A stretch of DNA of 43,645 nucleotides from a virus: IMG/VR virus record IMGVR_UViG_3300025704_000043, positions 1 through 43,645 of that record. One strand, given 5' to 3'. A model generated the notes under the pieces. It was not told the origin of the DNA. It saw nothing but the letters and a program-made list of their open reading frames with translations, and did not search any database. Within the stretch, counting starts at the first letter, position 1. Every line of letters begins with the position of its first letter. This document shows positions 1 to 38,031 of the stretch, in pieces. Both the position numbers and the translations under genes were made by a program.

Positions 1-97
1 ACGCCGACTTGTATGCAGGTATACCGAAATTGAATACGCGTACGCCAAGCATTTTAGATGTCTTTTTTAGTTTAGAGTTTTGTGTAAGTAAATTCAT
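1..97 (-). CDS. GP88-family protein, 5' part only (runs off window)
   Basis: The reading frame starts at the ATG at 97 and stays open to base 1, so only the first 32 codons are present. The translation begins MNLLTQNSKLKKTSKMLG and continues with VRVFNFGIPAYKSA. The LTQNSKL start followed by a 'FNFGIPAYKSA' stretch matches what I know of the N-terminus of the 'gene product 88' family, whose members carry a Cys-rich core just beyond this point. The Cys core lies outside the window and cannot be checked. The gene follows the 63-aa gene after 2 nt and is probably co-transcribed with it from the element at 312-354. The role of the family is unknown to me. Confidence 0.7.
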   Translation of the reverse strand, partial: MNLLTQNSKLKKTSKMLGVRVFNFGIPAYKSA

Positions 98-99
98 AG

Positions 100-291
100 T
101 TATAAGCTGTTATAGTATTCGTTAAGATCGTCTATTGATTCTATTATGCCTCGACATGCATCATAAATGTCTTCTAGCCAATTATCATTTTTGTAGTCTT
201 CCCATTGATCTAGTGTATCCATGTCGTCTACTTGTTCCATTGTTTCTAGGTCTGCCAACAATTGCTGTAATTCTCGTACTGTGTATTTCAT
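100..291 (-). CDS. hypothetical small acidic protein (63 aa)
   Basis: This 63-residue, strongly acidic protein (many D and E, few K and R) has the predicted-helical segment VRELQQLLADLETMEQ near its N-terminus and a second around EDIYDACRGIIESIDDL. No domain is recognised. It is the first gene downstream of the bipartite promoter-like element at 312-354; its ATG lies about 21 nt beyond the element after an A-rich leader without a Shine-Dalgarno. Its stop is 2 nt before the GP88 start. Small acidic early phage proteins often bind host enzymes, but nothing in the sequence shows a target. Confidence 0.7.
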   Translation of the reverse strand: MKYTVRELQQLLADLETMEQVDDMDTLDQWEDYKNDNWLEDIYDACRGIIESIDDLNEYYNSL

Positions 292-311
292 TTTATTTGT
301 TTTTAGTTTAT

Positions 312-354
312 TGTTTTAATATATTATCTTACCTGTATCGTATTATTTTTGTAA
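312..354 (-). promoter_or_regulatory. bipartite promoter-like element, copy A
   Basis: On the minus strand the upstream block TTACAAAAATAATACG is followed by 10 non-conserved bases and GATAATAT. This copy lacks the GTAAC that ends most downstream blocks (it reads ATTAAAAC). The stop codon of the 115-aa gene abuts the upstream block, and the ATG of the 63-aa gene follows about 21 nt after the element. Direction is inferred from genes starting on that side in nearly all copies. Confidence 0.6.
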
Positions 355-702
355 TTACTCTTCAACTATATTGAATAGCTCTTCAACACTATCTGATATA
401 TATTCAGCAAGGTCATCAGCTGCGTCAAACTCAATATTACTTAACTGTATTCTATTGTCATAATCTATTTCTAACTCATAAGAATAAGAGTCCGATCTAT
501 CAAATTCATAGTTGCTAATTGTTTGGGTAATAGCTTCTCTGATTTCATCTACAGTTTCCTTAGTTATTTTAGGTAGATTAATTTTTTCTAGCGCAATTTT
601 TGCAAGTGATAGCTCTTTACTCATCTGAGTTGAGTCTTGTTTAGCTTGTGTTAACATTGTTTCTAATGTTTGAATTCTGTTTTCTAATGCTTGTTGTTCC
701 AT
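355..702 (-). CDS. hypothetical coiled-coil protein (115 aa)
   Basis: The N-terminal half (about residues 1-45) has regular hydrophobic spacing and no proline, consistent with a coiled coil: MEQQALENRIQTLETMLTQ followed by a Lys/Glu-rich helix. The C-terminal half is acidic and Tyr-rich (SDSYSYELEIDYDN) and ends EELFNIVEE. No family is recognised. It is the last gene of the three-gene run starting at 1153, separated from the 71-aa gene by 9 nt, and its TAA abuts the element at 312-354. Dimerisation through the coiled coil is an inference. Confidence 0.7.
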   Translation of the reverse strand: MEQQALENRIQTLETMLTQAKQDSTQMSKELSLAKIALEKINLPKITKETVDEIREAITQTISNYEFDRSDSYSYELEIDYDNRIQLSNIEFDAADDLAEYISDSVEELFNIVEE

Positions 703-711
703 AATTTAGTT

Positions 712-927
712 TTATTTATTTGATTTTTCTATTGATTCTGTTATGTATTGCCACACTTGCAGCTCTCTTTTTGTTACCTCTAGCATTAATTCTAACTCAG
801 ACATAGTGATTGGACCTGTTATTTTATGCTTTATATCGTATGAAAGCTGCTCAATCTCAATCTTTAGCATTGACATTTTAGCGAAAGCTTTGTTACTTGC
901 TCTGTCATGTAGTTCGTATTTAGTCAT
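712..927 (-). CDS. hypothetical helical protein (71 aa)
   Basis: This 71-residue protein looks almost wholly helical (SMLKIEIEQLSYDIKHKI, then SELELMLEVTKRELQVWQYI), possibly a helical hairpin. It overlaps the end of the upstream 77-aa gene by 8 nt, which suggests translational coupling, and lies 9 nt before the 115-aa gene. No known family is recognised. The compact coupling to neighbours supports it being a real gene. Confidence 0.7.
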   Translation of the reverse strand: MTKYELHDRASNKAFAKMSMLKIEIEQLSYDIKHKITGPITMSELELMLEVTKRELQVWQYITESIEKSNK

Positions 928-1153
928 CTTCTTTGATTAAAATGTTATCTCCGAACCTCATGTCCCAAGCTGATACTCTTAATTTATTTATATTACAAAC
1001 TTCGTATATATCACTTAACTCACTGATAGTCAAGTCACCGTAAAACGTAGAGCTTTCTAGCTTTGCTAACAATCTACTTGAAGTGAAAGAATAGTCACTT
1101 GATTTAATTTTTTTGATGTACTTAGGTTTGATTTTTTGTAGTAATGTATTCAT
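920..1153 (-). CDS. hypothetical protein (77 aa)
   Basis: A 77-residue protein with a basic N-terminus (LLQKIKPKYIKKIKSSDY) and an acidic C-terminus (ILIKEDD). The middle, LTISELSDIYEVCNINK, may be helix-turn-helix-sized but I cannot assign it. The ATG at 1153 lies 16 nt downstream of the promoter-like element at 1170-1212, making this the first gene of a three-gene operon with the 71-aa and 115-aa genes. No family is recognised. Confidence 0.7.
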   Translation of the reverse strand: MNTLLQKIKPKYIKKIKSSDYSFTSSRLLAKLESSTFYGDLTISELSDIYEVCNINKLRVSAWDMRFGDNILIKEDD

Positions 1154-1169
1154 TGTTTTATTTTTATTT

Positions 1170-1212
1170 GTTACGTATATATTATCATACGGTGATCGTA
1201 TTATTTTTGTAA
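1170..1212 (-). promoter_or_regulatory. bipartite promoter-like element, copy B
   Basis: The minus strand carries TTACAAAAATAATACG, ten variable bases, then GATAATAT and a block ending GTAAC. It is a perfect match to the group consensus. The ATG of the 77-aa gene is 16 nt downstream. The upstream block is also translated as the C-terminus (DYKNNTITV) of the 89-aa gene, so the element overlaps coding sequence. Confidence 0.65.
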
Positions 1213-1454
1213 TCTTTATTGTAAGTTGTAGCTAACTCTATGTAGTCTACATCTGACAGGAACGCTCTTGCATAATCTTCTACTAAGTAAGGTGTGTTGC
1301 ATGTATTTGGATTCCTGAACACGCAATCTTCAACTATTTCTTTTAGTTCTGATGGTTGTACTATATAGTCAAAGTCTATGCTTCCAAGTATCTCTGTGTT
1401 TATTTTCCAAGTAGCGTAATTGCTCCAACCGTTGTATTTTTCTAATTTACTCAT
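1185..1454 (-). CDS. DUF7249-like phage protein (NGWSNYATW signature, 89 aa)
   Basis: The chosen start (1454) gives MSKLEKYNGWSNYATWKINT. The N-terminal NGWSNYATW(R/K)-N signature is typical of a small phage protein family that I know as DUF7249; its function is unknown. A longer reading from 1577 exists but would overlap the upstream gene by over 120 nt, and the shorter start lies 1 nt after that gene's stop. The last codons of the gene run through both blocks of the element at 1170-1212, so the C-terminus YKNNTITV is dictated by promoter-like DNA. Confidence 0.75.
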   Translation of the reverse strand: MSKLEKYNGWSNYATWKINTEILGSIDFDYIVQPSELKEIVEDCVFRNPNTCNTPYLVEDYARAFLSDVDYIELATTYNKDYKNNTITV

Positions 1455-1455
1455 A

Positions 1456-1773
1456 TTATTTGTTTCTATAAGGTGTTCGTTCATGATATGCTTCTTTAAA
1501 TTCCTCAATTGTATCTTTTTCAAACTTATTGAAAGAATTGATACCGTATAACTTGTCGTATAACTCTTTGAAGCCATCGTATCTACAGTATTTACCGTTG
1601 ATCTCGTAAGACATTTCTATATCGCTTATTTCGTGCTCGTAAGTGTCTTTTAGTTCATTGTGAATAGTATGACTCCACACAGTTCCTTTTACTGTAAATA
1701 ATCCTAGTTCTTTTGAAAAGCCAGTACTTATACTGTAGCTTACGTCTTCAAAATTCTTAATAATTTCACTCAT
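1456..1773 (-). CDS. hypothetical protein (105 aa)
   Basis: The protein has an N-terminal part rich in beta-type residues (DVSYSISTGFSKELGLFTVK then GTVWSHTIHNELKDTYEHEI) and a helical C-terminus (KFEKDTIEEFKEAYHERT). The pattern suggests a small alpha/beta fold, but no family is recognised. It is the first ORF downstream of the putative ncRNA at 1795-1960 and the element at 1963-2005. It is followed after 1 nt by the NGWSNYATW gene. Confidence 0.7.
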   Translation of the reverse strand: MSEIIKNFEDVSYSISTGFSKELGLFTVKGTVWSHTIHNELKDTYEHEISDIEMSYEINGKYCRYDGFKELYDKLYGINSFNKFEKDTIEEFKEAYHERTPYRNK

Positions 1774-1794
1774 ATCGTTTAATTTAATTTGTTA

Positions 1795-1960
1795 GTAACT
1801 AGTGAGGAATCGAACCTCATACCCGTCGGTAGTCGCGGCGACCGGGGACACCCCAATCCTAAATCCTCCATACCTAGTTTCCGCACCATTCCAGGATCTT
1901 CGTCAGCTTAACAATTTATACTACCATTGCCGTACTGAGCCCCACAAAGTGCTTGTTTTG
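1795..1960 (-). ncRNA. putative structured RNA with tRNA T-arm-like 3' end
   Basis: This 160-nt spacer has no leftward ORF, starts directly after the element at 1963-2005 and is much more GC-rich than its surroundings. Read on the minus strand, it ends in a perfect T-arm: stem TGAGG, loop TTCGATT, stem CCTCA. Just before it is a run of small hairpins: GGGG-TGT-CCCC, GTCG-CCG-CGAC and TACC-GACG-GGTA. Flanking stems GAAACTAG/CTAGTTAC (one mismatch) and TTGTT(A)AG/CTAACAA could close the structure. I could not fit a normal D-arm or a 7-nt anticodon loop, so an ordinary tRNA is not supported. It could be a tRNA relic, a tRNA-like element or a new ncRNA. Ends are approximate. Confidence 0.5.
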
Positions 1961-1962
1961 TT

Positions 1963-2005
1963 GTTACATATATATTATCCTGCTTGTGTCGTATTTTTTT
2001 TGTAT
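1963..2005 (-). promoter_or_regulatory. bipartite promoter-like element, copy C
   Basis: The upstream block is slightly degenerate (ATACAAAAAAAATACG); after 10 variable bases come GATAATAT and GTAAC. It overlaps the 3' end of the 72-aa gene. What follows is not an ORF but the GC-rich putative RNA at 1795-1960, so this copy seems to drive a non-coding transcript that may read on into the 105-aa gene. Confidence 0.6.
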
Positions 2006-2193
2006 TTCTTTTTACCTAAGCTTACATCTTGATACATACGGCTGACTACACGGTGCATAAGTTCGGTGTGTATAGCACTAAACTCATCTCCGTCCTCTAT
2101 GATATGATCACCATCGAGTTCCCATTCACATACGTCTGATAGTTTGTTTAACATCGTAGCGGATATTCTGTTTACTTTCAACTGCGTTTTCAT
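1975..2193 (-). CDS. hypothetical protein (72 aa)
   Basis: The start overlaps the stop of the 96-aa gene (ATGA), so translation is probably coupled. The N-terminus MKTQLKVNRISATMLNKLSD is basic, the middle is acidic (ELDGDHIIEDGDEF), and the C-terminus GKKKYKKNTTQAG is encoded within the element at 1963-2005. It is the last gene of the operon that starts at 2927. No family is recognised. Confidence 0.65.
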   Translation of the reverse strand: MKTQLKVNRISATMLNKLSDVCEWELDGDHIIEDGDEFSAIHTELMHRVVSRMYQDVSLGKKKYKKNTTQAG

Positions 2194-2480
2194 ATTAATT
2201 CTAATTTATCTATTAATTCTTTTGATTTTTTAGCTACCATTGCTTCAATGTAAGACTTTTGTACCGATTTTAAGATAGAGCTCTTAAATCTATACAAATT
2301 CATACATGACGACGAGTGGTGTGAGTGGCTTACAACTTCTTCAGATAGATCAAACCATGACCCGCCGCCGTATTTTTCTTGTAAAAACTCTAACGATTTT
2401 ACAAAGCCTTGTACTATCTGCTCTAGTTCCTCTTCTGCAGATTTTTTTAGTCTTTTTTCTATTTGATTTAAGTCTTTCAT
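2190..2480 (-). CDS. hypothetical helical protein (96 aa)
   Basis: The protein is mostly helical, with an N-terminal Lys/Glu-rich coiled-coil-like segment (LNQIEKRLKKSAEEELEQIV) and a second basic helix near the C-terminus (VQKSYIEAMVAKKSKELID). The middle has an unusual His/Ser-rich SHSHHSSS stretch that could bind metal, but no second ligand cluster is obvious. The start overlaps the previous stop (TAATG) and the stop overlaps the next start (ATGA). No family is recognised. Confidence 0.65.
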   Translation of the reverse strand: MKDLNQIEKRLKKSAEEELEQIVQGFVKSLEFLQEKYGGGSWFDLSEEVVSHSHHSSSCMNLYRFKSSILKSVQKSYIEAMVAKKSKELIDKLELI

Positions 2481-2656
2481 TATAATATTCTTTTTAATTG
2501 TTCTTTAATTGCTAGTATATCTTCATCACTAACTGCTACTTCTTCATCGCTCTCACGTTCCCATATAACATTGTACATAGCGTCGTGGAAGTTATCACCT
2601 ATTATTTCATCTAGGCGATTAGCGATGTCTTTAATTTCCTCCCACGTTAACTTCAT
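2480..2656 (-). CDS. hypothetical small acidic protein (58 aa)
   Basis: The start at 2656 gives MKLTWEEIKDIANRLDEIIG. A longer version from 2725 would overlap the upstream gene by nearly 100 nt, so the shorter one (26-nt overlap) is preferred. The protein is acidic, with the stretch RESDEEVAVSDEDILAIKEQ before the C-terminus LKRIL. It may be a short two-helix protein. It lies between the 98-aa and 96-aa genes and shares TAATG with the latter. No family is recognised. Confidence 0.55.
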   Translation of the reverse strand: MKLTWEEIKDIANRLDEIIGDNFHDAMYNVIWERESDEEVAVSDEDILAIKEQLKRIL

Positions 2657-2927
2657 CTTGACAGTTTTTTTGGTTAAATGCGTACAAGAATTTAATTCTA
2701 TCGACGTGATTTGGAATTGTTTCACGCTTGAAGTTTATCCACTCTGGATTTCTTTCATTTACATACGGTGTTTTCTTGTTGATTTGATAGAACAACGGTC
2801 TTCTGTGATAAAAATTATCTTGTTTGGTATTAACTCGTACATAACCTGACTCAGATACTGTACCTATTCTACCGTCTGACAATTCGAAGTGTAAACTTCC
2901 TTTGCTTGTGATTTTAATTAACTTCAT
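2631..2927 (-). CDS. hypothetical protein (98 aa)
   Basis: This is the first gene downstream of the element at 2944-2986; the ATG follows 16 nt after it, behind a purely A/T leader. The N-terminus (LIKITSKGSLHFELSDGRIG then TVSESGYVRVN) alternates as in a beta-barrel or beta-sheet; the second half is basic and aromatic (YHRRPLFYQINKKTPYVNER). I recognise no family. The 3' end overlaps the next gene by 26 nt. Confidence 0.65.
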   Translation of the reverse strand: MKLIKITSKGSLHFELSDGRIGTVSESGYVRVNTKQDNFYHRRPLFYQINKKTPYVNERNPEWINFKRETIPNHVDRIKFLYAFNQKNCQDEVNVGGN

Positions 2928-2943
2928 ATTATTATTTTTATTT

Positions 2944-2986
2944 GTTACATATATATTATCTAAGAGCGATCGTATTATTTTTGTAA
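2944..2986 (-). promoter_or_regulatory. bipartite promoter-like element, copy D
   Basis: This copy matches the consensus in both blocks: TTACAAAAATAATACG, 10 variable bases, GATAATAT, then ATATGTAAC. The leader after it is AAATAAAAATAAT before the ATG at 2927. The TAA stop of the DnaA-like gene is embedded in the upstream block. Confidence 0.7.
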
Positions 2987-3361
2987 GAAGTAATTCTGTT
3001 GAATAAATTCTATTTGCTCTTCGTTTAAGTCACTCCAGTTAACACCATACTCGACGCTAGCTATAGTGTTTAACGCTTTGATACCGATAGCTCGCCTGCC
3101 GGAGTTATTAATTTGCTGCTTGATGCTTGTGTATAGCACTTGATCCGTCAATGGAAATATCTTATGCACACCATGTAATACAGTTGCATAGTTTTTATTT
3201 AGCTCATTACCTATAGTCTCGAATGTATCGTTAGTATATTCTCGAGATAGCTTGTAAAATAAAGCTCTAGCGTCTGAGTGGTACCGTTTTCTACCCTTGA
3301 TAGCTAAGTCGAAACCTACATTGTCTTCTACTATTGCTCTTATTTGTCTTATGTTAATCAT
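2975..3361 (-). CDS. DnaA domain-IV-like DNA-binding protein (128 aa)
   Basis: Residues 24-68 match the C-terminal DNA-binding domain of DnaA: a basic GRKRYHSDARALFYKLSRE helix, then ETIGNELN, then NYATVLHGV at 57-65. The last corresponds to the DnaA signature motif D/N-H/Y-(S/A)TVLH that contacts DnaA boxes. There is no AAA+ ATPase domain; the full protein is only 128 aa, against roughly 450 aa for DnaA. It probably binds a DnaA-box-like site in the phage or host, as an origin-recognition helper or transcription factor (inference). It overlaps the upstream 105-aa gene by 8 nt. The C-terminus LQK is encoded inside the element at 2944-2986. Confidence 0.75.
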   Translation of the reverse strand: MINIRQIRAIVEDNVGFDLAIKGRKRYHSDARALFYKLSREYTNDTFETIGNELNKNYATVLHGVHKIFPLTDQVLYTSIKQQINNSGRRAIGIKALNTIASVEYGVNWSDLNEEQIEFIQQNYFLQK

Positions 3362-3671
3362 TTGCTTGTATTTTAGCTACTAATGTTTGTAGAAACCAGT
3401 CACAGCTTGTATTGCCGCCAACGCTCCATGTTGTTAAACCATTTTTAGTATATTTCTTATCGTAAGTTTTCCAGTCATACACTCTGAATACTTTGTCAGT
3501 GTATAACACAACCCACTCGTATTGAACCTTGCCGTCACCTGAATCACTTGGTTTGAATGTTGGTTTGCCTAATGCTTTTTTGATTTGTTTGTAAGTAAAA
3601 CCATTTAACTCACCTACCTTGTAACCGTCAAGGTTTACGTTATCTAACTCGTCTATATTTAATTTTCTCAT
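3354..3671 (-). CDS. conserved phage protein of unknown function (105 aa)
   Basis: The sequence has the pattern 'Y-x-x-(I/L)-x-x-x-(F/L)-G-x-P-T-F-x-x-x-D-S-G-D-G-K-V-x-x-E-W', then FRVYDWKTYDKKYTKNG and WSVGGNTS. I associate this with a widespread small phage protein of unknown function. The alternating pattern suggests a small alpha/beta domain with a central sheet. It begins 2 nt after the 59-aa gene and overlaps the DnaA-like gene by 8 nt, so the three genes form an operon from the element at 3869-3911. Confidence 0.7.
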   Translation of the reverse strand: MRKLNIDELDNVNLDGYKVGELNGFTYKQIKKALGKPTFKPSDSGDGKVQYEWVVLYTDKVFRVYDWKTYDKKYTKNGLTTWSVGGNTSCDWFLQTLVAKIQAND

Positions 3672-3672
3672 A

Positions 3673-3852
3673 TTATTCTGCTATCCAAGTTAAACCTTTA
3701 TAATTAAACCACTCTGTTATACCGTCTTTGTCTTCATTCTCATCATAGATGAATGCGAACTTGCTTGGTATTTCACTGATACTATAACCTCTGTATAGTT
3801 TTATACCGTTTAGTATTAATCTTGTTTTGCTTTTAAATTTTAGTGATTGCAT
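3673..3852 (-). CDS. hypothetical protein (59 aa)
   Basis: Translation starts MQSLKFKSKTRLILNGIKLY and ends NYKGLTWIAE. The ATG lies 17 nt downstream of the element at 3869-3911 and the TAA is 2 nt before the next ATG, so the operon position supports a real gene. The segment GYSISEIPSKFAFIYDENED has alternating hydrophobics suggesting beta strands. No family is recognised. Confidence 0.65.
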   Translation of the reverse strand: MQSLKFKSKTRLILNGIKLYRGYSISEIPSKFAFIYDENEDKDGITEWFNYKGLTWIAE

Positions 3853-3868
3853 AGTATATATTTTATTT

Positions 3869-3911
3869 GTTACATGTATATTATCTTACTCATGTCGTAT
3901 TATTTTTGTAA
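3869..3911 (-). promoter_or_regulatory. bipartite promoter-like element, copy E
   Basis: The minus strand reads TTACAAAAATAATACG, ten variable bases, GATAATAT, then ACATGTAAC. It lies between the stop of the 63-aa gene, which is embedded in the upstream block, and the ATG of the 59-aa gene 17 nt downstream. Confidence 0.65.
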
Positions 3912-4091
3912 TTGCTTTGATCTATTTTTTAACTCTGCTAAAGCTTTGTCTGCTATTTCCCAAGCGTCATAGTATCGCTCTCTGTTCTGACTTTCATCTA
4001 GTATATCTCTGATACCATCATTTTTTAATTGCTCCATCAACGCTTCCATACCTAGTATGACTATGTTTAATTCTTTGTTAGTTAATTCCAT
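3900..4091 (-). CDS. hypothetical helical protein (63 aa)
   Basis: A 63-residue protein of two predicted helices: ELTNKELNIVILGMEALMEQ, then a charged linker (LDESQNRERYYD) and AWEIADKALAELKNRSKQL. The architecture resembles many small early phage helical hairpins; no family is assigned. It is the last gene of the operon starting at 4688, and its stop lies within the element at 3869-3911. Confidence 0.65.
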   Translation of the reverse strand: MELTNKELNIVILGMEALMEQLKNDGIRDILDESQNRERYYDAWEIADKALAELKNRSKQLQK

Positions 4092-4105
4092 ATTTATTTA
4101 TTCTA

Positions 4106-4294
4106 TTAGTTTAAGTTAAATACTTTACAAAATATATCTTCTTCGAGTTCTTCAGGTAATTCACCGTCTTCACACTCGCAATCTTCTTTGACAAACTTAG
4201 ATATTAAGTTTATTAATTCTCTTTCACTGACCTCGTTACTTTTTAGTTTGAAGTAGTCTATTGTTTCTTTATTCCACTCGAATACTTTTTCCAT
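4106..4294 (-). CDS. hypothetical small acidic protein (62 aa)
   Basis: A strongly acidic 62-aa protein with a Cys-containing acidic stretch (FVKEDCECEDGELPEELEED). The N-terminal half is helical (WNKETIDYFKLKSNEVSERE). It lies 14 nt upstream of the 63-aa gene and 10 nt after the small membrane protein gene. The charge suggests binding to a basic or nucleic-acid-binding partner, but no family is recognised. Confidence 0.65.
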   Translation of the reverse strand: MEKVFEWNKETIDYFKLKSNEVSERELINLISKFVKEDCECEDGELPEELEEDIFCKVFNLN

Positions 4295-4304
4295 AAATTG
4301 TACT

Positions 4305-4469
4305 TTAGATTATTCCACCGACACTATTAAATGAAGTTGGGTTAGTTACTAGTTTGAATATTAATACAGTGATACCTGTCGCTGCTAAACCTGTTAGTGA
4401 TATCATTATCGCTTTGATAGTTACATCGGTTACTTTTACTAGTAACTTGTGTGTGAATTGTTTTCTCAT
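4305..4469 (-). CDS. small single-pass membrane protein (54 aa)
   Basis: The chosen start at 4469 gives MRKQFTHKLLVKVTDVTIKA followed by a hydrophobic stretch (IMISLTGLAATGITVLIFKL) of about 20 residues and a short polar tail (VTNPTSFNSVGGII). The basic N-terminus suggests the N-terminus faces the cytoplasm. The upstream A/T leader (ATAAATATAATTAAT before ATG) is like those of neighbouring genes, which favours this start over an upstream one at 4523. Function is unknown; it could be a superinfection-exclusion or envelope-modifying protein (inference). Confidence 0.6.
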   Translation of the reverse strand: MRKQFTHKLLVKVTDVTIKAIMISLTGLAATGITVLIFKLVTNPTSFNSVGGII

Positions 4470-4592
4470 ATTAATTATATTTATTAGTTCACGAACAGGT
4501 GCAAAGTTTCTCTTTTCGCCCAAGCTATTTAAAATCTCTTTGTTTTAAATAATTATTCTGTACTCGGTTTTTTTGTTCGCTTTATTTTATTA

Positions 4593-4688
4593 TTATTCTT
4601 CTTCATTGAATTCTGCCCACTCTAGGCAATCTCCACATAGTTCGTCGCTTAAAAAGCTCGGCTCGGCGCCACAACAGTTACTCCACAT
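4593..4688 (-). CDS. 31-aa mini zinc-ribbon-like protein
   Basis: Translation of 31 residues: MWSNCCGAEPSFLSDELCGD then CLEWAEFNEEE. A CC pair (residues 5-6) and C-x2-C (18-21) spaced by 11 residues give four Cys that could bind one zinc ion, and the acidic WAEFNEEE tail is typical of tiny phage zinc ribbons. The ATG follows 20 nt after the element at 4709-4751, behind the standard A/T leader. Despite its size, the ordered Cys pattern and promoter position support a real gene. The partner is unknown. Confidence 0.65.
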   Translation of the reverse strand: MWSNCCGAEPSFLSDELCGDCLEWAEFNEEE

Positions 4689-4708
4689 ATTATTTATATT
4701 TATTAGTT

Positions 4709-4751
4709 TTTACATTTATATTATCTACGAGTAGACGTATTTTATTTGTAG
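4709..4751 (-). promoter_or_regulatory. bipartite promoter-like element, copy F
   Basis: A somewhat diverged copy: CTACAAATAAAATACG, ten variable bases, GATAATAT, then AAATGTAAA. The 31-aa zinc-ribbon ATG follows 20 nt later. Confidence 0.55.
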
Positions 4752-4856
4752 ACAGTGTTTTCACTGACTCTAACACACCGTAACTTGTTTATATACATAG
4801 ATGTAAGAATAGTATATTATTGTTTGTTAGAGGTGTTGTTTTATTTGTTGAAAGAA

Positions 4857-4886
4857 AGAGGAGTAGAGTAGTAACACCACTCCTCT
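4857..4886 (-). terminator. probable terminator after the 75-aa gene
   Basis: An 8-bp perfect stem, AGAGGAGT paired with ACTCCTCT around a 14-nt loop, lies 14 nt after the stop of the 4900-5127 gene. On the minus strand it is followed by a T-rich tract (TTCTTTCAACAAATAAAAC). The rest of the spacer (4752-4856) shows only one small CAGTG-TTTT-CACTG hairpin near 4753 and no ORF. Confidence 0.5.
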
Positions 4887-4899
4887 AAGCACTTAAGAG

Positions 4900-5127
4900 T
4901 TAAATAATTACTTTATCTCTTAGTATTACTGGAATTGAAGAAGAAGAAGTGTATGATTTATACTTTTTAAAACATTCCATTACTTCTAATTTGTCTTTCA
5001 TTATCTCGTAAGCGAGATCGTGGTTGTAAGTAGTAGTTTTTCCATTTTTAAATGTTACTTCGACTACTTGATTTTTTCCAATTAGTGACTTTCTGATTAC
5101 AAAGCGTTTAGATTTTAAGTTTTCCAT
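4900..5127 (-). CDS. hypothetical 75-aa protein, paralogue 1
   Basis: The protein starts MENLKSKRFVIRKSLIGKNQ and ends SIPVILRDKVII. It is a clear paralogue of the protein at 6046-6273: same length, no gaps, 57 of 75 residues identical by eye, with most changes conservative (I/V, S/T). The N-terminal two-thirds alternates as in a small beta-sheet (RFVIRKSLIGKNQVVEVTF then NGKTTTYNHD), followed by a helix. It resembles the small 'KTxTSxF..I..' type single-domain phage proteins only loosely, and no family is assigned. It is expressed from its own element at 5164-5206 and ends in its own hairpin. Confidence 0.75.
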   Translation of the reverse strand: MENLKSKRFVIRKSLIGKNQVVEVTFKNGKTTTYNHDLAYEIMKDKLEVMECFKKYKSYTSSSSIPVILRDKVII

Positions 5128-5163
5128 TGTTTAAGTTATTTAAGTTATTATTATTATTTTTTA

Positions 5164-5206
5164 GTTACATATATATTATCTTAAAGTGGACGTATTATTT
5201 TTGTAA
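5164..5206 (-). promoter_or_regulatory. bipartite promoter-like element, copy G
   Basis: The minus strand reads TTACAAAAATAATACG, ten variable bases, GATAATAT, ATATGTAAC; the ATG at 5127 follows after 36 nt of A/T-only leader. Copy H lies 36 nt further upstream, so the 75-aa gene may have tandem promoters. Confidence 0.65.
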
Positions 5207-5242
5207 CGTTGTCGAGCAGAGCGAAGTGCTATACACAAGAGT

Positions 5243-5285
5243 GTCTATTAGATATTATCTTAAGCGAAGCGTAATTTCTTTGTAA
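5243..5285 (-). promoter_or_regulatory. degenerate bipartite element, copy H
   Basis: TTACAAAGAAATTACG, ten bases, GATAATAT: both blocks and the exact spacing are kept, but the terminal GTAAC is replaced by TAATAGAC. No gene starts directly after it; the next signal is copy G. It could be a tandem or decayed promoter. Confidence 0.4.
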
Positions 5286-5354
5286 AAAGCGAAGTGCTAT
5301 ACACTATGCTATACATAGCGTTTTCTTTAGCAAGAAAAGCTACGTTTCACACAG

Positions 5355-5402
5355 TGTGACATTAGGGTCTTAATATAGACCTAGTAAGGGGCTATTGTCA
5401 CA
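5355..5402. repeat. inverted-repeat element, copy 1
   Basis: TGTGACATTAG at 5355-5365 pairs with CTATTGTCACA at 5392-5402 (one T-T mismatch). Inside is a second hairpin, GGTCT paired with AGACC. The right half AGTAAGGGGCTATTGTCA is identical in copy 2 at 6761-6806. On the plus strand it is followed by GTTTTTATTTG, which resembles a terminator tail, but the element lies just after the stop of the leftward 43-aa gene. Confidence 0.55.
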
Positions 5403-5406
5403 GTTT

Positions 5407-5538
5407 TTATTTGTATTGTTCTAACCATCTTTCGATGCCTTTTTGTTCGTCAGTCATAGGTTTTTCTACTACGTTAATGCGAATACATTTTACGTATTTC
5501 GTACCGTCAGGTCGTGTGATTGTTTTGCTTGTGTACAT
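5407..5538 (-). CDS. hypothetical protein (43 aa)
   Basis: The 43-aa product begins MYTSKTITRPDGTKYVKCIR and ends IERWLEQYK. A beta-hairpin-like start (TITRPDGTKYVKCIRINVVE) precedes a short helix (MTDEQKGIERWLEQY). It shares one base with the stop of the upstream 56-aa gene (TAATG), the last in a run of five coupled or closely spaced small genes from the element at 6302-6344. No family is recognised. Confidence 0.6.
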   Translation of the reverse strand: MYTSKTITRPDGTKYVKCIRINVVEKPMTDEQKGIERWLEQYK

Positions 5539-5708
5539 TATTTGTATATTTTTGGGTTAGTATGAGACATCCATTCGATGTTGTTGATGTCGAAGCCACG
5601 GTCTTCTATGAAAAGCTCTAGGTCTTCACAAGATTGATTTTCTTGGTCGGTAAATTCTAATTGGTGTACTTTACCGTTGGTGAAATTTAGTATTGTTATG
5701 TATATCAT
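5538..5708 (-). CDS. hypothetical protein (56 aa)
   Basis: A 56-aa protein starting MIYITILNFTNGKVHQLEFT. The N-terminal half alternates as in a beta-hairpin; the rest is helical and acidic (CEDLELFIEDRGFDINN). The ending IEWMSHTNPKIYK is typical of a small phage family I recall with an N-terminal 'V-W/H-Q-L' hairpin, but I cannot name it. The stop overlaps the next start (TAATG). Confidence 0.6.
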   Translation of the reverse strand: MIYITILNFTNGKVHQLEFTDQENQSCEDLELFIEDRGFDINNIEWMSHTNPKIYK

Positions 5709-5718
5709 ATTGTTTGTT

Positions 5719-5871
5719 TTAGATTGCTTCCCAGAACAGGTTGCGCTGTTCAGTGGTTAAGCCGATTAGATTGTCTTGTCCGAACATTTCTTGGCAGATC
5801 ACAGTTCTGCGCTCAGACTCTTTAATGTTTCGCATGACTTCGTCCCATGCTTGTTGATTTGTTTTATACAT
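5719..5871 (-). CDS. hypothetical helical protein (50 aa)
   Basis: A 50-aa protein beginning MYKTNQQAWDEVMRNIKESE and ending TTEQRNLFWEAI. It looks all-helical with one Cys. The A/T leader ATAAAAACTAAATATT precedes its ATG, and it lies 10 nt before the 56-aa gene. No family is recognised; operon position is the main support. Confidence 0.55.
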   Translation of the reverse strand: MYKTNQQAWDEVMRNIKESERRTVICQEMFGQDNLIGLTTEQRNLFWEAI

Positions 5872-5883
5872 AATATTTAGTTT

Positions 5884-6006
5884 TTATAGTTTATTAATTA
5901 GTTCGTCTAGTGTTATTTGTAAACTTGTTTTAGTTACATTTCCGTTTAGATATTGTTGAAGTTCATCGATTGTTGCAATTACTTCTACTCTTTGCTCGTT
6001 TGTCAT
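5884..6006 (-). CDS. hypothetical protein (40 aa)
   Basis: A 40-aa protein, MTNEQRVEVIATIDELQQYL then NGNVTKTSLQITLDELINKL, probably a helical hairpin. It has the same leader style (AATAAAAACTAAATATC before ATG) as its neighbour at 5719-5871, suggesting a duplicated translation-initiation region. No family is recognised. Confidence 0.5.
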   Translation of the reverse strand: MTNEQRVEVIATIDELQQYLNGNVTKTSLQITLDELINKL

Positions 6007-6045
6007 GATATTTAGTTTTTATTAGTTATTGTTTTAGATGAGAGA

Positions 6046-6273
6046 CTAGACTATTTCTTTGTCTCTTAAGATTACTGGAATACTTGTTGATGAAGTATAA
6101 GACTTATATTTGATGAAACAGTTCATAGTTTCTAGTTTGTCTTTCATGATATCATATACTTTATCGTGATTGTATGTTACTTGTTTTCCAGATTTGAATG
6201 TTACTTCAATGATTTGATTCTTTCCTACTAATGATTTTCTTACTACGAATCTTTTTGTTTTTAATGTTTCCAT
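6046..6273 (-). CDS. hypothetical 75-aa protein, paralogue 2
   Basis: Paralogue of the protein at 4900-5127 (57 of 75 identical by eye, gap-free). It starts METLKTKRFVVRKSLVGKNQ and ends SIPVILRDKEIV. Residues most strictly kept are KRFV-RKSL-GKNQ, EVTF-GK, TYNHD, IMKDKLE, KYKSYTSS and SIPVILRDK; differences cluster at positions 31-41. It is the first gene after the element at 6302-6344, followed by four even smaller genes that paralogue 1 lacks. Function is unknown. Confidence 0.75.
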   Translation of the reverse strand: METLKTKRFVVRKSLVGKNQIIEVTFKSGKQVTYNHDKVYDIMKDKLETMNCFIKYKSYTSSTSIPVILRDKEIV

Positions 6274-6301
6274 GTTTATTATATTTAATTATTATTATTT
6301 A

Positions 6302-6344
6302 GTTACAGTTATATTATCTAGTTGACTACGTATTTTCTTTGTAA
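6302..6344 (-). promoter_or_regulatory. bipartite promoter-like element, copy I
   Basis: The minus strand reads TTACAAAGAAAATACG, ten variable bases, GATAATAT, AACTGTAAC. The ATG of paralogue 2 follows after 28 nt of A/T leader. It precedes the five-gene run 6273 to 5407. Confidence 0.65.
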
Positions 6345-6353
6345 TGTTCTCCT

Positions 6354-6467
6354 TTATAAAAGGTTAGAACCGTTTTGTAATGTATCAATTAATACTATTA
6401 TAGATAAGAATAGAATAGTTGATAGAGAAATTAATTTGATTACTGAATTAAGATTTAAATGTTTCAT
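6354..6467 (-). CDS. small membrane peptide (37 aa)
   Basis: The product begins MKHLNLNSVIKLISLSTILF and continues LSIIVLIDTLQNGSNLL. A hydrophobic stretch of about 20 residues (VIKLISLSTILFLSIIVLI) is flanked by a short basic N-terminus and a polar C-terminus, fitting a single membrane span. The ATG lies 14 nt downstream of the element at 6482-6524, so it is the leader gene of the whole leftward region. Function is unknown. Confidence 0.55.
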   Translation of the reverse strand: MKHLNLNSVIKLISLSTILFLSIIVLIDTLQNGSNLL

Positions 6468-6481
6468 GTTATAGTTATTTG

Positions 6482-6524
6482 GTTACAGTTATATTATCTG
6501 TGTGCAAGCGTATTATTTTTGTAA
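6482..6524 (-). promoter_or_regulatory. bipartite promoter-like element, copy J
   Basis: TTACAAAAATAATACG, ten variable bases, GATAATAT and AACTGTAAC on the minus strand. It is the first (rightmost) copy, at the edge of the divergent region, and precedes the 37-aa membrane peptide. Confidence 0.65.
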
Positions 6525-8891: not shown

Positions 8892-10133
8892 ATGGCAATC
8901 AATTATTTAAATAGCATTGATCTTAACAGAAACGAACTGCAAGATGCGCAGTTAATAAGATCTCAAGTAGAAAACCAACCAAACGACGCTGCTGTAGGTG
9001 GAACACCTGTAGAAGGTCAGTTATATTTTAACACATCAGACGATGTACTAAAAATTTACGCTAACGGTGCCTGGGTAGAAGTAGGTGGTGGAGTAGAAAC
9101 TCTTACGACTACAGATGGTACTTACATCAATCTAACACCTAACTCTGCAACTTCTGGAGCAGTTACTGTAACAGCGGATCTTTCTGCTATAGATGGAACG
9201 TCAAGCGCAGGTGAAAGATACTTAACTAAAACAAATGTTTGGGCTGAAATAAGCACAATACCAGGAACATACGTATGGGCTATTCAAGGAGACACAGGTG
9301 GTCCAACGTCTGTAACTTCAGGTAGCACTATTGATTTTGAAGGAGGAAATAATGTTACAACTGCTTTAGTAGGTAATACATTAACAATAAACTCTACAAA
9401 TGAAGCAATAACATTAACAGGTGACGTTACTGGCACAGGTACAACATCTATAGCTACTACTATATCCGCTGGAGCAGTTGACTTTGCTATGATAAATCCC
9501 GCGGTTGTAATAACTGAAGCTGAAGGTATTGTAAATAACGACAACGATGTTACATTACCAACTTCCGCAGCTGTAAAAGCTTATGTAGATGATTCAGTCG
9601 CTGGTGGATTAGTATATCAAGGCGGATACAACGCTGCCACTAACACTCCAAACCTAGATTCTCCTCCAACAGGAGCGGTTAATAAAGGTTTTACCTATAC
9701 AGTAACTGCTGACGGATTATTCTTTACAGAGCAAGTTAGAGTAGGTGACGTGCTTATTGCTGAGATAGACACCCCGACAACATTAGCTGATTGGACAACT
9801 GTTCAGAACAATATTGATCTTGCTGATCTAACAACAGTAGGTATTGGTAATGTAAACGCTGGTACTGGTATTAGTGTAGCTTACTCTAATGGAACAGCTA
9901 CAGTAACAAACACACAAACGAACTCAGATAACACTTACGCTGTAACAATAACTGATACAGCTACAATAACGCATGGGTTAGGTACTAAAGATGTTATGAT
10001 TCAACTGTATGACGTAACCACAGATGAAACTGTATATGCTGATGTTGATAGAGCTTCTACAACAACCGCTACAATTACATTTGCTACAACTCCTACAAAC
10101 TCAGTTAGAGTATTAGTGCAGAAGATAGGGTAA
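8892..10133 (+). CDS. tail appendage protein 3, 413 aa
   Basis: The N-terminal domain (MAINYLNSIDLNRNELQDAQ, then GTPVEGQLYFNTSDDVLKIY and GAWVEVGGG) is a common phage-fibre head domain with 'G-Q-L-Y-F-N-T-x-x-x-x-L-K-I-Y-x-x-G-x-W'. The middle contains TLTGDVTGTGTTSIATTI and the AAVKAYVDD motif often found in fibre shafts. The C-terminal domain TYAVTITDTATITHGLGTKD, ending RVLVQKIG, is again a widespread beta capping domain. It is probably a trimeric adhesin on the short tail. Confidence 0.75.
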   Translation: MAINYLNSIDLNRNELQDAQLIRSQVENQPNDAAVGGTPVEGQLYFNTSDDVLKIYANGAWVEVGGGVETLTTTDGTYINLTPNSATSGAVTVTADLSAIDGTSSAGERYLTKTNVWAEISTIPGTYVWAIQGDTGGPTSVTSGSTIDFEGGNNVTTALVGNTLTINSTNEAITLTGDVTGTGTTSIATTISAGAVDFAMINPAVVITEAEGIVNNDNDVTLPTSAAVKAYVDDSVAGGLVYQGGYNAATNTPNLDSPPTGAVNKGFTYTVTADGLFFTEQVRVGDVLIAEIDTPTTLADWTTVQNNIDLADLTTVGIGNVNAGTGISVAYSNGTATVTNTQTNSDNTYAVTITDTATITHGLGTKDVMIQLYDVTTDETVYADVDRASTTTATITFATTPTNSVRVLVQKIG

Positions 10134-25997: not shown

Positions 25998-27455
25998 ATG
26001 GCTTTAGATCCATTATTTGGTAGTATAGTACCATCTCAAAAACAACAAACATTAGCAACAAACTTTTTAAAGTTTAACGACGGAACAGCAGCTGGAGACA
26101 GTGATACTTTCGCTCAGCAGTATTTACCAGAAATTTACGAACAAGAAGTAGAGCGTTATGGAAACAGAACGTTATCTGGATTCTTACGTATGGTAGGAGC
26201 TGAAATGCCAATGTCTTCTGATCAAGTAATTTGGTCTGAACAAAACAGATTGCACATCTCTTATACAGATGTAACAAATGACCAAGTAAACACTTTAACT
26301 ATTCCTGTTTCTGCTACAGTAAGAAACGTAATTTCTGTTGGATCAACAATCGTTGCTATCGACAAATTAGGAGCTGAATTAAAATGTGTTGTTACTGCTT
26401 CTAACCTATCTACAGGTGCTTTAACTGTTGCTCCTTATACAGCTGCAACCACTGCTACTTTAGCAGTTGATGATATCAAAGTATTTGTATACGGTTCAGA
26501 ATATGGAAAAGGATCAACTACACCTAACTACTCTGCTTCACAAACAGATGGGTATGTAAGTGTAGACCCTGATTTTACACAATTCTCTAACTCACCAATC
26601 ATCATTAGAAACAAATACGTAGTATCTGGATCTGATATGGCTCAAATCGGGTGGGTTGAAGTTGCAACTGAAGACGGAACTTCTGGATACTTATGGTACT
26701 TAAAAGCTGAATCTGAAACAAGATTACGTTTTGAAGACTACTTAGAAATGTCTGTAGTAGAAGGTGAAAAAGCTTCAGCAACAGGTGCTGGATCTGCTTC
26801 TGCAGCTGGATACAAAGGTACTGAAGGTTTATTTGCTGCTATCAAGTCTAGAGGAAATGAAGAAGCTGGGTTTAACGCTGCTGCTAATGCATTAGGGGAA
26901 TTTGATGCTATCTTGAAAAACTTAGATACTCAAGGAGCTATTGAAGAAAACATGTTATTCTTAAACAGACAAACTTCTTTAGGATTTGACGATATGTTAG
27001 CTGGATTAAACGGTGGAAACGCTGGAGCTGGTTCTGCGTATGGTATCTTTGAGAACTCTGAAGATATGGCATTGAACTTAGGATTCTCTGGGTTCCGTCG
27101 AGGTTCTTATGACTTCTACAAGACTGACTGGAAATACTTAAACGATGCTTCTACAAGAGGTGGTGTAACTGAAGCTGCTGCTATAGCTGCTCCTGTTGCT
27201 GCTATCGACGGTGTATTAGTACCTGCTGGAACTTCTACTGTTTATGACCAAGTATTAGGAACAAACATTAGACGTCCATTCTTGCACGTTCGTTATAGAG
27301 CTTCTCAAGCTGATGACCGAAGAATGAAGCAATGGTTAACTGGTTCTGCTGGTGGAGCATACACTTCTGACTTAGACGCTATGGAAGTAAACTTCTTATC
27401 TGAAAGATGTTTATGTGTACAAGGTGCTAACAACTTCGTATTGTTCACTAAGTAA
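25998..27455 (+). CDS. major capsid protein (485 aa)
   Basis: A 485-aa protein located after portal and scaffold, with the strongest codon bias in the window (repeated use of a few codons such as TTA, GAA, GCT, TCT, AAC). It is preceded by the AAACAATTATT leader and followed by a strong hairpin, all consistent with very high expression. Content is beta-rich with Ala/Gly/Ser/Thr stretches (TGALTVAPYTAATTATLAVD), a helical section (ESETRLRFEDYLEMSVVEGE) and a C-terminal VRYRASQADDRRMKQW. An HK97 fold is expected for a tailed phage but I cannot verify it by eye. The size matches MCPs of large short-tailed Bacteroidota phages. Confidence 0.8.
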   Translation: MALDPLFGSIVPSQKQQTLATNFLKFNDGTAAGDSDTFAQQYLPEIYEQEVERYGNRTLSGFLRMVGAEMPMSSDQVIWSEQNRLHISYTDVTNDQVNTLTIPVSATVRNVISVGSTIVAIDKLGAELKCVVTASNLSTGALTVAPYTAATTATLAVDDIKVFVYGSEYGKGSTTPNYSASQTDGYVSVDPDFTQFSNSPIIIRNKYVVSGSDMAQIGWVEVATEDGTSGYLWYLKAESETRLRFEDYLEMSVVEGEKASATGAGSASAAGYKGTEGLFAAIKSRGNEEAGFNAAANALGEFDAILKNLDTQGAIEENMLFLNRQTSLGFDDMLAGLNGGNAGAGSAYGIFENSEDMALNLGFSGFRRGSYDFYKTDWKYLNDASTRGGVTEAAAIAAPVAAIDGVLVPAGTSTVYDQVLGTNIRRPFLHVRYRASQADDRRMKQWLTGSAGGAYTSDLDAMEVNFLSERCLCVQGANNFVLFTK

Positions 27456-27467
27456 GAGTATATTAAT

Positions 27468-27508
27468 GTAATTATTACCCTCGTTATATCAACGGGGGTA
27501 ATTATTAC
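27468..27508 (+). terminator. strong stem-loop after the capsid gene
   Basis: An 18-bp stem (one G-T pair): 27468-27485, beginning GTAATTATTACCC, pairs with 27491-27508 around an ATATC loop. A short CTTTATTAAA follows. It probably terminates or attenuates transcription, or stabilises the capsid mRNA 3' end. Confidence 0.7.
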
Positions 27509-27538
27509 CTTTATTAAATTATCAAATTATATTATATC

Positions 27539-28300
27539 ATGAAAACAAAAGTAATTAAAAATGAAAAGTGGGAAATTAAAGATAGAACCTACTTTGTAAC
27601 AGGATCATATCAACCTTTAACGTTAAGAATACCAGCTAGACATAGTTTAAAGTCGCCAATGCTGTATTATGACGAAGAAACAAATGAACAAAGAGAACTA
27701 AGATACGCAACCAATATGTCATCGCCTTTTAAAGATGAACAAAAAGGAGAGGTAACTTTAGGTCATATCTTATTTAAAGATGGATCTTTGTTTGTACCAA
27801 AAAGAAATCAACAACTACAAAAACTTTTATCACTATATCACCCTTTAAAAGGAATTAGATATACTGAATTTAACGCTGTAGAAGAAGCTGAAGATGAGTT
27901 AGATGTTATGGAGATGCAAATTGAAGCCTTAAATGCTGCTATGTCATTAGACGTAGATCAACAAGAAGCAATATTAAGGGTAGAATTAGGATCCAAGGTT
28001 AGTAACATGTCATCTAAGGAACTTAAAAGAGATTTACTACTATTTGCAAGGCAGAATCCTGCTTTGTTCTTAGAACTCGCTAAAGATGAAAACGTACAAT
28101 TGAGAAACTTTGCTATCAAAGCTGTAGAAGCTAAGATCATTAAGTTATCACAAGATCAAAGATCGTTTTCTTGGGCAAGCAATGGTAAAAAACTAATGAC
28201 AGTTCCTTTTGATGAAAACCCTTACTCAGCTATGGCAGCGTATTTCAAAACAGACGAAGGTGTAGAAGTCTTCAAGTCTATTGAGAAAAAACTTAAATAG
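27539..28300 (+). CDS. hypothetical capsid-adjacent protein (253 aa)
   Basis: The N-terminal about 105 residues form a beta-rich domain (YFVTGSYQPLTLRIPARHSL, then PMLYYDEETNEQRELRYATN, then GEVTLGHILFKDGSLFVPKR). The remainder is helical and charged, with a possible coiled coil (DELDVMEMQIEALNAAMSLD). I associate this layout with a protein next to the capsid gene in flavobacterial phages, function unknown (head accessory, or a shared T4-like structural protein). It lies between two strong hairpins, so its level may be set separately from capsid and adaptor genes. Confidence 0.6.
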   Translation: MKTKVIKNEKWEIKDRTYFVTGSYQPLTLRIPARHSLKSPMLYYDEETNEQRELRYATNMSSPFKDEQKGEVTLGHILFKDGSLFVPKRNQQLQKLLSLYHPLKGIRYTEFNAVEEAEDELDVMEMQIEALNAAMSLDVDQQEAILRVELGSKVSNMSSKELKRDLLLFARQNPALFLELAKDENVQLRNFAIKAVEAKIIKLSQDQRSFSWASNGKKLMTVPFDENPYSAMAAYFKTDEGVEVFKSIEKKLK

Positions 28301-38016: not shown

Positions 38017-38031
38017 AAACAAGAATAAGAC

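Follow-up and report, generated by a model that had tools for sequence, protein, structure and literature searches.

A conserved RNA domain resembling the upper half of a tRNA, and its exchangeable hairpins, in relatives of flavobacterial phages

Comparative analysis of the IMG/VR virus record IMGVR_UViG_3300025704_000043 (43,645 bases, analysed at its full length and referred to here as the window) shows a conserved RNA domain with the architecture of a tRNA's upper half and no anticodon arm. A structured RNA lies on the minus strand at 1945-1796, behind an early-promoter repeat, and its 3' part (1879-1796) was named TLD1 (Table 1). The same comparisons show TLD1 to be a dock for exchangeable hairpins, with one held in its D-like loop and others in the 5' leader. 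An earlier note on this DNA had reported a structured RNA here; its coordinates and strand were correct, and the observation is confirmed and proves to have been underestimated.

The left end of the window is a run of small minus-strand genes with a repeated promoter-like motif (AATACG, a spacer and GATAATATATATGTAAC), of which there are nine minus-strand copies (at 327, 1185, 1978, 2959, 3884, 4724, 5179, 6317 and 6497). A copy directly upstream of the RNA, as had been proposed, is indeed seen, and the same motif precedes the RNA in many relatives. It is solely from this repeat, a putative early promoter, that we infer early expression of the RNA. Just past the copy near 1978 sits a GC-rich island in AT-rich DNA, again as first described (GC 0.50 at 1795-1960; the window as a whole has 0.349 and positions 1-6500 have 0.32); equally GC-rich stretches make up 0.01% of the 166-nt segments sampled along the record. 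Elsewhere in the window, a DnaA C-terminal helix-turn-helix domain (PF08299, E 1.8e-9) is found in a small early protein encoded on the minus strand at 2975-3361, and 38016-43645, which holds no long closed ORF, is probably a giant gene leaving the contig end, as in MW202828.

Table 1. Features of the structured RNA and its promoter-like repeat in the window.
Feature	Coordinates	Strand	Evidence
Early promoter-like repeat (ATACAAAAAAAATACG, spacer, GGATAATATA, then TATGTAAC)	1971..2005	-	Motif copies in the window and relatives
5' leader hairpin module F5, three stacked helices	1888..1945	-	Common to relatives
tRNA-like domain TLD1, whole	1797..1879	-	Covariance model R1, 71.5 bits, E 5e-13; the window is one of the model-building rows
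Acceptor-like stem, 5' strand AACTAG	1874..1879	-	6 pairs, 100% paired (55 rows), double changes in 4/6
D-arm-like element	1832..1873	-	GU (1873-1872) and AC (1833-1832) around AUGG and the inserted hairpin
Foreign hairpin in D-like loop, GAUUGGGG-UGU-CCCCGGUC, exchangeable position	1840..1858	-	Folding; other hairpins there in relatives
UACC-GACG-GGUA tetraloop hairpin replacing the anticodon arm	1820..1831	-	4 bp, 100% paired
T-arm TGAGG-TTCGATT-CCTCA	1803..1819	-	Found in the letters, the open scan and the alignment
Acceptor-like stem, 3' strand CTAGTT	1797..1802	-	Same covariation count as the 5' strand (55 rows)
Discriminator-like A, then C	1796..1796	-	A in 55/55 rows, then C in 55/55; the AC trailer was demanded by the script picking the first rows, and not in the open scan or for model-added rows

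The T-arm that first drew attention to the region is present as described. The four small hairpins reported with it are real, but their arrangement differs: they are F5, the D-loop hairpin, the GACG hairpin and the T-arm. Among the long-range stems said to flank them, the AACTAG/CTAGTT acceptor is supported by relatives, whereas the outer GUAAC/GUUAC stem of the single-sequence fold was dropped; its GTAAC belongs to the promoter repeat. The statement that neither a D-arm nor an anticodon arm could be fitted holds for the anticodon arm, but a reduced D-arm does fit, with a stem of 2 pairs (double changes in both; 99.1% of cells paired over 55 rows) and a loop GG that is invariant (55/55 rows). 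The description 'T-arm but no tRNA body' was therefore nearly right, in that there is no anticodon, but an acceptor and an elbow exist. In the GACG hairpin, the closing pair is C-G in 27, U-A in 25 and U-G in 2 of the 54 lettered rows, and the first pair is U-A in 50 rows and A-U in 5.

Relatives (their loci carry L numbers) were collected with several patterns. Forty viral-contig stretches contain the exact 20-mer GAGGTTCGATTCCTCACTAG, and in 39 of them it lies in the same wider context, including L041, which is truncated upstream, and L010, L011, L013 and L032, which differ in the middle; the match in L040 belongs to an ordinary tRNA array and is not TLD1. A second pattern with an open T-stem returned 31 stretches and a looser third pattern 67. 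The covariance model R1 was built from 36 rows, including the window, and matches all 48 virus records reached via the loci (the window and 47 others), although the records that supplied rows match by construction; the weakest match is the truncated one (E = 0.005). Of the 26 loci that the third pattern added, R1 matches 22, the remainder (L115, L124, L131 and L133) being chance matches. A quite different, tmRNA-like motif yielded 19 stretches, three of them chance matches (L144, L146 and L148), and R1 matches 5 of the 11 loci that it newly fetched. The T-loop was part of the first three patterns and absent from this last motif, which still gave TLD1. Altogether, TLD1 is carried by about 74 IMG/VR records, redundant ones included.

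The carriers are one phage lineage: the terminase of the window is encoded in 40 of 47 carrier contigs (62-82% identity); the contigs without it are short for the most part. The terminase, portal and groEL of the window fall into PHROGs 6681, 6547 and 5725, respectively. By terminase, the closest named relative is an uncultured podovirus from Manatee Spring (64%), followed by Flavobacterium elemo phages (46%) and, behind them, phages of Cellulophaga, Maribacter and Tenacibaculum; the cultured cousins of the TLD1-bearing phages are flavobacterial phages. Comparison of 1700-2060 with named phages by blastn gave only a weak 37-nt match, in Cellulophaga phage phi10:1, and the RNA of a relative gave none. 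R1 had no match at E < 0.05 on the whole genomes of MW202828, elemoA 13-1A, Panino, phi38:1, phi19:3, Gundel_1 and Calle_1, with weak scores on phi38:1 (E 0.057, on an annotated tRNA-Thr) and Gundel_1 (E 0.073). The ARAGORN call of a tRNA-Thr at L013:1499-1571 (minus) is a TLD1 variant and likely an annotation trap.

The case for the structure is comparative. In alignment A4 (55 rows), 99.8% of 934 cells are standard pairs, and 9 of 17 pairs show a change on both sides, spread over all four helices. None of 500 shuffles reached any of five measures, and slid versions were at most 62% paired. An earlier count on 36 rows had given 99.8% pairing, with 7 of 17 pairs changed on both sides. Acceptor stems include the forms AACTAG/CTAGTT, AGCTAG/CTAGCT, GGCTAG/CTAGTC, AACCAG/CTGGTT, AGACAG/CTGTCT and AGATAG/CTATCT, and T-stems in loci fetched with the tmRNA-like motif are lengthened to 6 bp on both sides together (TGAAGG/CCTTCG, TGAGGG/CCCTCA). 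The cells hold 27 G-U and 1 A-C combinations (55 rows), and therefore the minus-strand RNA is the selected form; this ratio speaks against a DNA structure or an RNA of the opposite strand. Thermodynamics alone would have missed TLD1, given that single-sequence folding does not stand out for either the whole stretch (z = -0.85) or TLD1 (z = -0.51), and that in the window the covariation structure (-22.5 kcal/mol) lies 4.9 kcal/mol above the MFE (-27.4 kcal/mol).

Several rows were left out of A2 and A4: the four forms with another middle part in place of the GACG hairpin (L010, L011, L013 and L032), the truncated L041, L009, which has a double insert, and L049, which MAFFT misaligned in A1; these last two were part of A1. 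Identical or same-scoring repeats were dropped (L002, L017, L028, L031, L038, L039, L120, L121, L126, L128, L129, L136, L137, L138 and L149). One extra T stands ahead of the T-arm in L033.

Two origins raised in the earlier note lose ground here, namely a decayed tRNA gene and an attachment site, in which the 3' end of a tRNA serves as the integration core. Phages often carry pieces that resemble the 3' half of a tRNA, and the T-loop and acceptor of TLD1 have that resemblance. However, the compensatory changes in all four helices disfavour a relic. Furthermore, 294 of 295 Bacteroidia genomes have no R1 match, the sole exception being a 63-kb phage contig in a Sphingobacteriales MAG, on which the window's terminase is encoded as well (73%). 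The 28 distinct window proteins scanned, which are part of its ORFs, included no integrase. Both origins are thus highly improbable.

TLD1 is filed as neither tRNA nor tmRNA because the defining tests of both failed. ARAGORN and Rfam (gathering thresholds) found no tRNA or tmRNA in the window, the tmRNA model RF00023 gave no match there above its gathering score, and a permissive Rfam search of the region returned only a tRNA-Sec (14.5 bits, E = 4). These searches reject the idea that the window hides a tRNA or tmRNA, and the domain is strongly conserved with compensatory changes; the outcomes that the earlier note had listed as refuting its proposal thus did not arise. TLD1 resembles canonical tRNAs (RF00005) in its T-arm consensus (TTCRANY loop), the GG of the D loop, the discriminator A, a trailer of the phage tRNA type and its position beside tRNAs. 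It differs from them in its 2-bp D-like stem, the missing variable loop, a 4-bp GACG-tetraloop stem where an anticodon arm with a 7-nt loop would be (54 lettered rows), and an acceptor of 6 bp rather than 7, although 5 of 55 rows could form a seventh pair (T-A).

For tmRNA, the comparison set comprised the TLD-only tmRNA of the Mycobacterium phage DS6A and the tag-less mitochondrial tmRNAs of jakobids. TLD1 shares with tmRNA the acceptor stem and T-arm, a deformed D region and the lack of an anticodon, and the DS6A form is likewise phage-borne. However, TLD1 lacks the D-loop signature, the 5' signature and the tag reading frame of tmRNA, its middle being a variable hairpin of 2-67 nt (parsed rows); it carries exchangeable hairpins, its T-arm is preceded by a GACG tetraloop hairpin, and its rows have the alanine pair (G-U as the third acceptor pair) only exceptionally. 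Anticodon-less tRNA-like structures are known from plant RNA viruses. GOLLD and ROOL are also structured RNAs found with phages and tRNAs; they are large, whereas TLD1 is small, is a modular mosaic and has no Rfam match. Searches of the open-access literature returned no DNA-phage family with a tRNA-like dock for exchangeable hairpins, which is weak evidence of absence. Among the proposals of the earlier note, a new RNA class made early in infection fits best, with 'early' taken from the promoter repeat alone.

Comparison between genomes shows that the hairpin modules inside and ahead of TLD1 are swapped. The content of the D-like loop ranges as widely as given above and is usually a hairpin, the minimal form L011 holding none, and for 53 inserts the folding advantage over shuffles is slight (mean z -0.67, with negative values in 42). 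Across 44 regions compared, module GTAAACGTTTTCACG was found within TLD1 in 9 and outside it in L024; GGCGTAAGCAAAGGT within TLD1 in 5, and besides in another module (L035) and in a T-arm RNA beside TLD1 (L022); and CGCTCGTGCTGAAAA within TLD1 in 3 and outside it in L009. An alignment of one recurring module over 18 sites shows 97.2% of cells paired and 21 cells with double changes; its covariation score was reached by 0 of 500 shuffles and its 4 double-change pairs by 144 of 500. The leader module F5 recurs in 11 distinct sequences, of which alignment A5 holds 9 (7 distinct rows; L018 and L141 were out for length). In A5, 97.8% of cells are paired and 4 pairs change on both sides; the covariation score was reached by 0 of 500 shuffles, the pair count by 51 and the pair types by 354.

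The reading that we favour, with a probability of roughly 0.5, is that maturation by tRNA enzymes punctuates early transcripts and frees a stable RNA with trans-acting modules. Transcription would start from the early promoter, and the host enzymes of tRNA maturation would take TLD1 for a tRNA. RNase P would cut its 5' edge, RNase Z would cut after the A and the CCA-adding enzyme would finish the end, as the latter two act on tRNAs. These cuts would punctuate the early transcript in the manner of tRNAs within tRNA-mRNA operons, setting the downstream mRNA free with a short leader, and the stable RNA released would act in trans on host factors through its hairpin modules. The best pointers to such maturation are the invariant A-C trailer, which occurs also after true tRNAs of these phages, and the tight packing of TLD1 against true tRNAs, with gaps of 6 nt to a tRNA-Met (L118) and 5 nt to a tRNA-Gln (L135). 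TLD1 adjoins other T-arm RNAs too, a few nucleotides apart. Also counted in favour are the covariation, the excess of G-U over A-C, the modules that recur inside and outside TLD1, and the range of unrelated genes downstream. In addition, the similar domain of tmRNA is described as a substrate of RNase P (PMC3985003). However, the RNase P site is unclear because no base pair continues the 6-bp acceptor: in 50 of 55 rows an A faces A, C or G at position -1. Also counted against maturation are the predicted folding of TLD1, which is no better than that of shuffles and has a different MFE structure, the slight folding advantage of the D-loop inserts, the four forms without the GACG hairpin, and the conservation of T-stem and tetraloop sequence, which a pure processing signal would not need.

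Several other T-arm RNAs accompany TLD1. Tag-less 80-nt 'mini-tmRNAs' above the Rfam tmRNA gathering score were found at 3 loci and then at 12 of 13 others (the miss is L139), and in several genomes TLD1 is followed by one within about 300 nt. They have a short P2 hairpin and lie at L012:754-834 (+), L045:4146-4228 (-) and L050:724-805 (-), with further loci in L113, L123, L125, L132, L138, L140-L143, L145, L147 and L149. Across 11 distinct mini-tmRNAs all 230 cells pair and the third acceptor pair is G-U (G3-U70) in 11/11; double changes occur in 4 pairs, and 19 of 500 shuffles get to this number too. They are much closer to the DS6A form than TLD1 is. The tmRNA of DS6A is described as approximately a TLD alone, and a similar molecule as a strong inhibitor of tmRNA, perhaps by titrating SmpB (PMC4131195, PMC11915505); the mini-tmRNAs probably inhibit trans-translation as DS6A-like molecules.

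The chief rival to the maturation reading, though a doubtful one, is a decoy; it comes first among the rivals on account of the TLD-only tmRNA of DS6A and the inhibition of tmRNA by a similar molecule. TLD1, like the mini-tmRNAs, would imitate a tRNA, or the tRNA-like domain of tmRNA, and so occupy a host factor, for which SmpB, RNase P, the CCA-adding enzyme or a toxin attacking tRNA ends are candidates. The G3-U70 mini-tmRNAs that pass the Rfam cut-off near TLD1, and a DS6A tmRNA that is little more than a TLD, argue for this. However, the window itself has no match to the tmRNA model, TLD1 has no tmRNA-type 5' signature and as a rule no alanine pair, and the hairpin inserts would stay unexplained by a decoy.

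Longer and smaller T-arm RNAs were also observed. Phage phi38:1 (KC821614) has a full-length tmRNA by RF00023 at 26803-27164 on the minus strand (87.6 bits), where the annotation of 26300-27700 gives no tmRNA feature and places a CDS, gp041, on the opposite strand inside it. Calle_1 has a full-length tmRNA as well (RF00023), and the Calle tmRNA has already been published (PMC8776804). Another T-arm RNA type lies up- or downstream of TLD1 in L019, L044, L022, L009 and L127, with an acceptor like GGGCGTG/CACGTCC, a D-like AAATGGTT, a variable insert and AAC before the T-arm; the tmRNA model gives it 25-40 bits, below the cut-off, in four of these genomes. A third type, with the acceptor GCCCAAG/CTTGGGC, occurs at L016 (~804-1100, minus) and L034 (~9010-9215), and in L016 it has an open, coding-like stretch mid-molecule that is reminiscent of the tmRNA layout. 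Very small elements consisting of an acceptor, a AATGGTTAAC-like link and a T-arm were seen at L005:1208, L027:2215, L029:8894 and L039:3119, the one in L005 directly ahead of a start codon.

The genes beside TLD1 bear on a further rival, in which the domain acts in cis from the 5' UTR and raises or switches translation of the following early gene. In the window, a 105-aa ORF (1456..1773, minus) has its ATG 23 nt past the TLD1 acceptor strand; it matched no Pfam family and has relatives at 4 other TLD1 loci, and an ortholog in L002 is 61% identical. An ORF start lies 15-27 nt downstream in 13 of 55 rows, the window included and L044 and L118, whose listed ORFs overlap the next RNA, not counted. 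Such a leader also has a parallel in the yjdF riboswitch, whose fold is tRNA-like, and the grafting of tRNAs into the leaders of mRNAs is described as boosting translation (PMC9142559). As with yjdF, a tRNA-like structure precedes a start codon; TLD1 differs in having no Rfam match, no fixed gene family and often no gene next to it. Over the 55 rows, the next element downstream is an ORF start in 29, a T-arm RNA in 21, another element in 3, a promoter in 1 and the locus end in 1, and the promoter-like motif intervenes in at least 10 of the 29 ORF-start rows. Moreover, downstream proteins (ORFs of at least 45 codons) form 10 unrelated clusters among 28, and thus TLD1 is untied to any one gene. 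A cis-acting leader is therefore an unlikely general account; by analogy with yjdF, it could apply to copies beside a start codon, and not to those before RNAs or promoters.

If TLD1 is matured as a tRNA, these phages gain a way to cut and stabilise early RNAs using host enzymes. With the co-encoded mini-tmRNAs, the inhibition of trans-translation by phages would become testable in a marine phage group, DS6A being the only named precedent found. At its most speculative, the whole may be a modular RNA weapon system, with a host-matured tRNA-like chassis, hairpins swapped between genomes by recombination, each directed against a different host factor or defence, and mini-tmRNAs blocking trans-translation. 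The module swaps look like an RNA-level arms race.
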